64,000 nt of DNA, taken from the NCBI GenBank assembly GCA_020850615.1, contig JADZEI010000038.1, forward strand, positions 1 to 64,000, written 5' to 3'. The notes beneath the pieces were generated by a model, which saw nothing but the letters and a program-made list of their open reading frames with translations, did no database searches and was not told where the DNA came from. Made by a program: the position numbers and the translations under genes. The stretch's first letter is position 1. Each line of letters begins with the position of its first letter. Source of the DNA: Dehalococcoidia bacterium. Lineage in GTDB: Bacteria > Chloroflexota > Dehalococcoidia > Tepidiformales > Tepidiformaceae. Shown here in pieces: positions 47,477-59,970 of this stretch.

Positions 47477-47863
47477 TCAGCCCGGGCCCGTTGTTTGGCT
47501 GCGCCCGGTGTAGGGGGCGGGGAGGCGGGTGGAGCGGAGGCGGTCGAGCTCAGCGCGGGTGACGTGGAGCTCTTCCGTCAGCAGGCGGATCTGTTCGCCC
47601 ATGCGGAGGATGATCTCGACGCCGGCGAGGTTGACGCCGAGCTCATCGACGAGGCGCTGGGCCTGGCGGATCCGCTGGATGTCGCGGCGGCTGTACATGC
47701 GGATGTTGCCGTTGGTCCGGCGGGGTTCGACGAGGCCGGCGCGTTCGTAGTAACGAAGGGTCTGCTGGTGCATGCCGACCATGCGCGCGGCGATCGAGAT
47801 GACGTAACAGGGCTCGTCGTCTTCGGGGTCGCCGTCGGATGGCTGGGAGCGGTTGGGGCCCAT
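47477..47863 (-). CDS. hspR: HspR-type MerR-family heat-shock repressor
   Basis: 128 aa. MerR helix-turn-helix CYVISIAARMVGMHQQTLRYYERAGLVEPRRTNGNIRMYSRRDIQRI spans 19-65 (seen as ISIAARMVGMHQQTLRYYER and NIRMYSRRD), followed by a dimerisation coil (IILRMGEQIRLLTEELHVT). HspR represses dnaK, clpB and hsp20 operons in actinobacteria. ATG 47863 has GGAAGGAGGTGA at 6 nt. It lies 41 bp downstream of dnaJ and 102 bp upstream of clpC on the same strand. Confidence 0.93.
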   Translation of the reverse strand: MGPNRSQPSDGDPEDDEPCYVISIAARMVGMHQQTLRYYERAGLVEPRRTNGNIRMYSRRDIQRIRQAQRLVDELGVNLAGVEIILRMGEQIRLLTEELHVTRAELDRLRSTRLPAPYTGRSQTTGPG

Positions 47864-47904
47864 GCGCGTCACCTCCTTCCGATGTTCGTTGTGGGCGGTT
47901 GGGG

Positions 47905-58998: not shown

Positions 58999-59027
58999 TT
59001 GACGCGGCTCGCGGCACTGTCTACTGT
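58999..59027 (+). promoter_or_regulatory. Strong promoter upstream of the birA leader peptide
   Basis: TTGACG (58999-59004), 17-nt spacer, TACTGT (59022-59027): the best sigma-70-like promoter in the window. Expected start about 59034, 20 nt before the leader ORF. Confidence 0.75.
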
Positions 59028-59053
59028 TCAGGGCAGAAAAGGAGGTGATGCGC

Positions 59054-59113
59054 ATGGACGATCATAGTCGTAGTTCGGGTCGGATATCTGCGCTGGAGGT
59101 GACCTCCACCTAG
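59054..59113 (+). CDS. Leader peptide ORF upstream of birA
   Basis: 19 aa: MDDHSRSSGRISALEVTST, ending at TAG 59111-59113. AAAAGGAGGTG (59037-59047) is an exceptionally strong ribosome site 7 nt upstream. Five of 19 codons are Ser. The last codons overlap a palindrome GGAGGTGACCTCC (59094-59106). It is followed by a terminator 27 nt later. A peptide-based attenuator is the simplest reading; the sensed signal is unknown. An ATG at 59048 is closer to the ribosome site than usual. Confidence 0.55.
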   Translation: MDDHSRSSGRISALEVTST

Positions 59114-59140
59114 GGCTCCGGCCTGAGGCTACGGACTTTC

Positions 59141-59174
59141 GGGGCCGGGAATCTACACCCGGCCCCTTCTTCTT
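59141..59174 (+). terminator. Rho-independent terminator between leader peptide and birA
   Basis: GGGGCCGGG (59141-59149), loop AATCTACA, CCCGGCCCC (59158-59166), then TTCTTCTTG. CCGGCC at 59118-59123 upstream could pair instead with GGCCGG inside the 5' arm (59143-59148), forming an anti-terminator. Confidence 0.75.
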
Positions 59175-59190
59175 GCCCGCGAAAACCACG

Positions 59191-59970
59191 ATGCAGTCTC
59201 CGCCATTCCACCCCGCGCTCTTCCATTCCGCCCTCGCGACACGGCTCGTCGGGCGGTTTTTCGTGTACCGGCCGGTGGTCGAAAGCACGATGGAGCTGGC
59301 GCGGCGGGAAGCGGCGGAAGGGGCGCCGCACGGCACGCTCGTGCTCGCGGAGGAGCAGACGGCCGGGCGCGGGCGCCGGGGGCGGGCGTTCCACAGCCCC
59401 GCGGGCGAGAACCTGTACTTCACCCTGGTGCTGCGGTTGCCGTTCGAGCGGCAGCGGGTGCTGCCGGTGGCGCTGCCGCTGGCGGTGTGCCGCGCGATCG
59501 AGGCGGCGGGCGTGGATGCGCGGATCAAGTGGCCGAACGACATCTGGTCTGGCGAGCGCAAGCTCTGCGGGATGCTGATCGACGCCGAGACGGCCGACGG
59601 CGGCGCGATCGCCTACCCGGGCATCGGGATCAACGTGAACGGCGACCCGACCGGCAACCCGGAATTGCGCGACATCGCCACGAGCATCGCGCGGGAGCTC
59701 GGTGCGCCGGTGAAGCGCGAGGAGCTGCTCGCGGACATCTGCAACGAGCTCGAAGCCGCGCTGGGGATGGACGAAGCCGCACTGGTCGCCGCCTACCGGC
59801 CGCTGAACCTGCTCCTGGGGCGCGCGGTGACCGTGACGCCAGCGGGCGCCGGCGATCCCTACCCGGCGACAGCGCGGGAGATCGCGCCGGATGGCTCGCT
59901 CATCGTGGAGCTGCCGGGCGGGGGCACGGAGCTGCTCACCGCGGCCGAGGTCTCGATCCGCCCGGCCTGA
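59191..59970 (+). CDS. birA: Biotin--[acetyl-CoA carboxylase] ligase (BirA)
   Basis: 259 aa, catalytic and C-terminal domains only, without the N-terminal DNA-binding domain of E. coli BirA. Biotin/ATP site in AGRGRRGRAFHSPAGENLYFT (GRGRRG near 59) and KWPNDIWSGERKLCGMLID (near 112-130). Attaches biotin to BCCP; matches the carboxyltransferase gene at 515-2116. ATG 59191 is preferred over a TTG at 59173, which lies just after the terminator's U-tract. Expression probably passes through the leader/terminator upstream. Confidence 0.92.
   Translation: MQSPPFHPALFHSALATRLVGRFFVYRPVVESTMELARREAAEGAPHGTLVLAEEQTAGRGRRGRAFHSPAGENLYFTLVLRLPFERQRVLPVALPLAVCRAIEAAGVDARIKWPNDIWSGERKLCGMLIDAETADGGAIAYPGIGINVNGDPTGNPELRDIATSIARELGAPVKREELLADICNELEAALGMDEAALVAAYRPLNLLLGRAVTVTPAGAGDPYPATAREIAPDGSLIVELPGGGTELLTAAEVSIRPA

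Follow-up and report, generated by a model that had tools for sequence, protein, structure and literature searches.

The element at positions 58999-59174 of the window (by which we mean the whole 64,000-nt stretch of DNA analysed) is probably a copy of an autonomous RNA gene, one that belongs to an undescribed RNA family of the Chloroflexota. From its own promoter to its own terminator, the gene would specify a mini-mRNA of about 130-140 nt here that can fold in two ways and for which the encoded peptide is irrelevant. Comparison among relatives establishes the conservation of the element, both of its pairings, the maintenance of its ORF, its terminator and its independence from birA, the biotin ligase gene that follows it in the window. 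The first-pass annotation had taken the same stretch for an attenuator-like leader of birA. Ribosome-coupled RNA regulation, with a conserved micro-ORF and competing pairings, survives from that proposal, but birA as the necessary target does not, given the situation in one Tepidiformaceae genome (G016), in one other family of the class Dehalococcoidia (f17) and outside the class. A tempting, probably wrong, reading as a birA attenuator is thereby corrected.

All parts of the element lie on the forward strand. A sigma-70-type promoter, TTGACG-17-TACTGT (58999-59027), was read directly from the DNA, with its boxes at 58999-59004 and 59022-59027. Segment 1 is a very strong Shine-Dalgarno sequence (SD), AAGGAGGTGAT (59039-59049), which is near-invariant across 27 families and has 8 nt between GGAGG and the ATG. 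The micro-ORF of 19 codons, MDDHSRSSGRISALEVTST, runs from the ATG at 59054 to the TAG stop at 59113, and its start, length and stop are conserved. Inside the ORF lie segment 2 (59066-59084, codons 5-11), a local hairpin GGAGGTGACCTCC of the form GGAGG-TGA-CCTCC (59095-59107), of which the SD-like GGAGG is 11 nt before the stop, and the 3' side of an SD-hiding helix (59090-59107, with GCGC at 59090-59093 and ACCTCC at 59102-59107), the 5' side of which is formed by GGAGGT and GCGC (59041-59053). Segment 3 (59117-59137), between the stop codon and the terminator, is the 3' strand of a long helix, helix A, with segment 2 as its 5' strand. The intrinsic terminator (59141-59174) has nine G-C pairs at 59141-59166 and then a T-rich tract. 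Promoter, strong ribosome site, 19-residue ORF, palindrome and terminator are all where the first-pass annotation had put them, and they recur in relatives. The RNA from about 59034 to 59174 has a predicted fold of -68.8 kcal/mol (z = -4.55 against shuffles). One copy of the leader is present in the window's genome. On the minus strand at 47859-47876 of the window, GGAGGTGACGCGCATGGG equals the SD/start core of the RNA with two mismatches.

A pattern search for the core GGAGGTGATGCGCATGGA, with at most one mismatch, found a birA-proximal copy in 35 of the 38 Tepidiformaceae genomes, and promoter, ORF, hairpin, pairing and terminator recur together with this core in the family. Among the 35 distinct Tepidiformaceae leaders compared, L085 is very divergent; the promoter is conserved, and the ORF has 18-20 codons, with indels in frame only and TAG or TAA as the stop. 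The transcription start is probably just 5' of the SD. The GGAGG-TGA-CCTCC hairpin can form in nearly all members of the family, and L085 retains its SD-like part only. A terminator-like hairpin is present in the relatives inspected, and TTGAC together with a TANNNT-type box precedes the element in most of them.

Five other families of the class also show the leader ahead of their birA genes, and a pattern search in 245 genomes of the class added further families (the reversed control pattern gave 0 matches). birA is the next gene in most class families found by this search, with f17 as the exception: there the terminator closes the RNA, and convergent genes, which vary between genomes, lie beyond it. 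Searches across the phylum show that the RNA stands alone in nearly all families outside the class, f111 having birA further downstream. In f90, a Chloroflexales-type family, BLASTN detected the RNA in 37 of 41 genomes, with one match each and with varying neighbours. Altogether 112 distinct sequences from 27 families were collected, covering nearly all Tepidiformaceae, 12 further families of the class and at least 14 outside it; judged by these sequences, the distribution of the RNA is phylum-wide in the Chloroflexota. Left out of the member count were two ordinary genes from the class search (L110 and L133), the coding genes L145, L147, L192, L194, L195, L231 and L239, and also L196, L240 and L241. 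The genomes are partly draft, and a member must have a near-perfect SD core to be detected by the pattern search, so little can be concluded from missing matches; in Dehalococcoides this pattern had none. Rfam 15 at the gathering cut-off gave no match at the element in the window and eight relatives. The open-licence literature contains no description of the RNA, and none of it joins biotin protein ligase, leader peptide and attenuation. A phage origin was considered and rejected, the exact f90-type pattern having no match in viral contigs. Several of the families outside the class have a LysM-domain gene on the same strand, about 80-300 nt upstream of the RNA (L168-L191, L226 and L230; f90, f124 and f127 loci).

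All these RNAs share an anatomy of segment 1 (the SD), segment 2 in the ORF, which is complementary to segment 1, segment 3 after the stop, which is a rival for segment 2, and the terminator. It is clearest outside the class, where segment 1, GGTGATGCCC, stands directly before the ATG, segment 2, GGGCATCACC, lies in the ORF, and GGTGATGCCC appears again as segment 3 after the stop, followed by the terminator. In Tepidiformaceae, helix A joins codons 5-12 with the post-stop segment over up to 22 positions, with wobble and compensatory changes. The SD and the adjacent GCGC pair with GCGC...ACCTCC at the ORF end, and compensations in this SD-hiding helix were found as GTGC:GCAC in L026 and L037, GCAT:ATGC in L085 (where the ACCTCC part is lost) and GCGA:TCGC in L161. 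Cognate partners pair better than permuted ones for helix A in 21 representatives (mean -24.1 versus -17.9 ± 0.78 kcal/mol; 0 of 100,000 reach the observed value), and in 27 family representatives both for the ORF:post-stop helix (-28.4 versus -21.6 ± 0.86; 0 of 50,000) and for the SD:ORF helix (-16.5 versus -14.8 ± 0.35; 0 of 50,000), where the sequences are related and the permutation counts are thus not strict probabilities. Among 28 sequences of f90, the 10-bp SD:ORF (1:2) helix is paired in 100% of cells, with only wobble-compatible changes in segment 2, and the 2:3 helix is paired in 93.4%, with changes on both sides, including A-U to G-C in seven sequences. The f90 2:3 structure exceeds all 500 shuffles in cells paired and in covariation score; these shuffles ignore relatedness, and slid controls are far lower. 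In Tepidiformaceae the SD helix and helix A occupy adjoining stretches of the ORF and cross each other, which makes them either alternatives or a pseudoknot in this family. Taken over the alignments, these data demonstrate that one strand of the ORF has two mutually exclusive uses, one of which hides the SD, most clearly outside the class.

What is kept of the micro-ORF across families is its start codon, its mostly in-frame indels and the position of its stop. The peptides are hydrophilic by inspection, have 13-24 codons and are unlike between families, and their conserved residues coincide with RNA-paired positions. At codons 2-12 the residues vary across families; the only frequent codons in Tepidiformaceae are AGT and CGT, both in helix A. 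The first-pass annotation had proposed a search of relatives for a conserved leader peptide and pairing. The pairings and the start and stop of the ORF are conserved, but the peptide sequence is not, and control by serine or any other amino acid finds no support, since neither peptide nor codons are conserved. The stop is lost or shifted in L117 (G105), L169 (G438), L188 (G577) and L222 (G332), through a 1-nt deletion, TAG to CAG in two cases and a 1-nt insertion, with the pairing kept; these cases may be errors, or the stop position may not be essential. Constant spacing between an internal SD and the stop was rejected as a defining feature (11 nt in Tepidiformaceae, 5-11 nt elsewhere, no internal SD in f137). 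Termination-reinitiation near the internal SD-like site was also rejected, since the sequences read offer no start codon close enough.

A mechanism consistent with this anatomy would begin with transcription from the RNA's own promoter and end at its own terminator. In one fold, segment 1 would pair with the end or the middle of the ORF and ribosome loading would be blocked; in the other, the ORF would pair with the post-stop segment and the SD would be free. Because segment 3 is transcribed last, the SD-hiding fold would form first during transcription, and the 2:3 fold, the more stable one by the means of the 27 families, would then open the SD. Every ribosome translating the ORF would be expected to reset the fold choice. 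What counts would then be whether the RNA itself carries a ribosome or is free, with an effect in trans or as a sensor of translation status, and not read-through into one gene. We put forward, tentatively and as the less probable part of the model, that this phylum-wide, essentially single-copy RNA uses its SD switch and micro-ORF to sense translation status, meaning free ribosomes or the initiation rate, and that it acts in trans, perhaps being also wired to birA in Dehalococcoidia. We know of no RNA class that senses translation status by an SD switch and micro-ORF of its own and acts in trans. A conserved RNA gene that most of the examined genomes in two large Chloroflexota groups share, and of which the peptide is free to change, is unusual. 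A translated ORF with a changeable peptide suggests that translation itself, not the product, is under selection, and the element offers a hidden/open SD switch in a phylum of which the small-RNA biology is little studied.

Parts of this arrangement are familiar from other systems. The trp, his and ilv leaders have a short leader ORF, an ORF-internal strand with two rival partners and an intrinsic terminator, all of which the Chloroflexota RNA has as well; unlike them, it has no control codons, no fixed downstream gene and, on comparison by eye, no antiterminator overlapping the terminator. Attenuators of the ermC type act at translation: ribosomes on a micro-ORF determine the choice among several helices and, with it, the accessibility of an SD. 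The proposed switch would likewise set helix choice and SD access by micro-ORF translation, but the controlled SD is that of the micro-ORF itself and no resistance gene follows. SgrS and RNAIII are dual-function small RNAs that carry an ORF and end at an intrinsic terminator; the Chloroflexota RNA resembles them in both respects and differs in that its peptide is not conserved. The type I toxin mRNA aapA3 conceals its SD in mutually exclusive folds by means of anti-SD elements, one of which lies within the ORF, and hok follows the same principle (PMC6733600). As in aapA3 and hok, the Chloroflexota RNA would be a small standalone mRNA with its SD hidden by an anti-SD in its own transcript. However, aapA3 and hok encode conserved toxins, whereas its peptide is hydrophilic and not conserved, and the full-length aapA3 mRNA hides the SD, whereas exposure of the SD is predicted for the stable fold of the Chloroflexota RNA.

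This last likeness bears on the reading in which the gene encodes a small functional peptide, such as a type I toxin with its translation delayed by metastable hairpins that hide the SD. The anti-SD inside the ORF, as in the aapA3 toxin mRNA (PMC6733600), and the conservation of the ORF would fit, but hydrophilic peptides that differ between families, with conserved residues at RNA-paired sites, make it improbable. It is very improbable that the crossing helices form the pseudoknot of a riboswitch for a metabolite such as biotin: the crossing of the SD helix and helix A in Tepidiformaceae would permit a pseudoknot and birA is nearby, yet the alignments show no conserved unpaired core beyond the SD and start, the ORF indels are in frame, no one regulated gene is found phylum-wide, and Rfam has no match. 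That signal-like sequences came together by chance in a high-GC intergenic region might be suspected, since the promoter scan by itself did not report the site at 58999-59027 and one terminator scores near shuffle expectation; phylum-wide conservation with covariation refutes this reading, and it can be practically dismissed.

A ribosome-dependent birA attenuator, in which translation of the leader chooses between termination at 59141-59174 and read-through, has more in its favour, and we still consider it unlikely. The window birA (59191-59970, with a possible TTG start at 59173) encodes a BPL/LplA-type ligase (Pfam PF03099, E = 2.2e-17) in which Pfam found no DNA-binding domain, in agreement with the first-pass annotation; a convergent gene follows. 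The terminator ends 17 nt before the birA ATG, the competing pairings include the ORF, and the order RNA-then-birA is found in Tepidiformaceae and 11 other Dehalococcoidia families, an adjacency that exceeds chance neighbourhood. Against this, helix A and the terminator do not overlap and are present together in the predicted fold. The possible anti-terminator pairing of the first-pass annotation holds as a long helix with covariation (59066-59084/59117-59137), but this helix does not overlap the terminator. An antiterminator made of the post-stop segment and a terminator arm seems unlikely, no conserved pairing being found by eye in several relatives. Control codons are not conserved, and the RNA stands alone in f17 and in families outside the class. 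In G016, birA follows directly on another gene and lacks the leader. The leader, with promoter, ORF MDCHSRSYGRTFSLEVTSS and terminator, sits at a different locus, upstream of an alpha-amylase-like gene with a TACACT box of its own 6 nt ahead of the GTG start.

Many relatives' birA genes also have a -10 box of their own. Past the terminator, a TANNNT box 5-9 nt ahead of the birA start occurs in 13 of 17 other Dehalococcoidia (control rate 0.029) and in 6 of 32 Tepidiformaceae (control 0.011), and -10 boxes at such a position are the sign of leaderless genes in bacteria, among them Chloroflexi (PMC3160421). An internal birA promoter, which the first-pass annotation had named (for the window, after 59170) as evidence against its reading, is supported in these relatives, but the window copy has no such box at 5-9 nt and no obvious birA promoter there; with this copy, cis control of birA is possible. 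Because the RNA occurs without birA and birA without the RNA, and birA has -10 boxes of its own, control of birA is not the conserved function. The maintenance of the RNA where birA sits elsewhere argues that the RNA is probably the product of a separate gene and not a birA switch. For the autonomous RNA gene, birA would be chiefly an adjacent gene that in many relatives has a promoter of its own; in Dehalococcoidia the RNA may in addition act on birA in cis, as a secondary and possibly added function.

Three observations concern the surroundings of birA and its relatives. In L121-L131 (f53, f59 and f70), and also in f26, the gene ahead of the RNA-birA pair is murE-like. A second biotin-ligase-like stretch of 38% identity (G000:C38:120806-121510) is part of a 789-codon minus-strand open frame in the genome of the window, at a position outside the window. 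Finally, in L091 (G044) and L103 (G060), birA apparently has an N-terminal helix-turn-helix, judged by eye only, and no RNA upstream.
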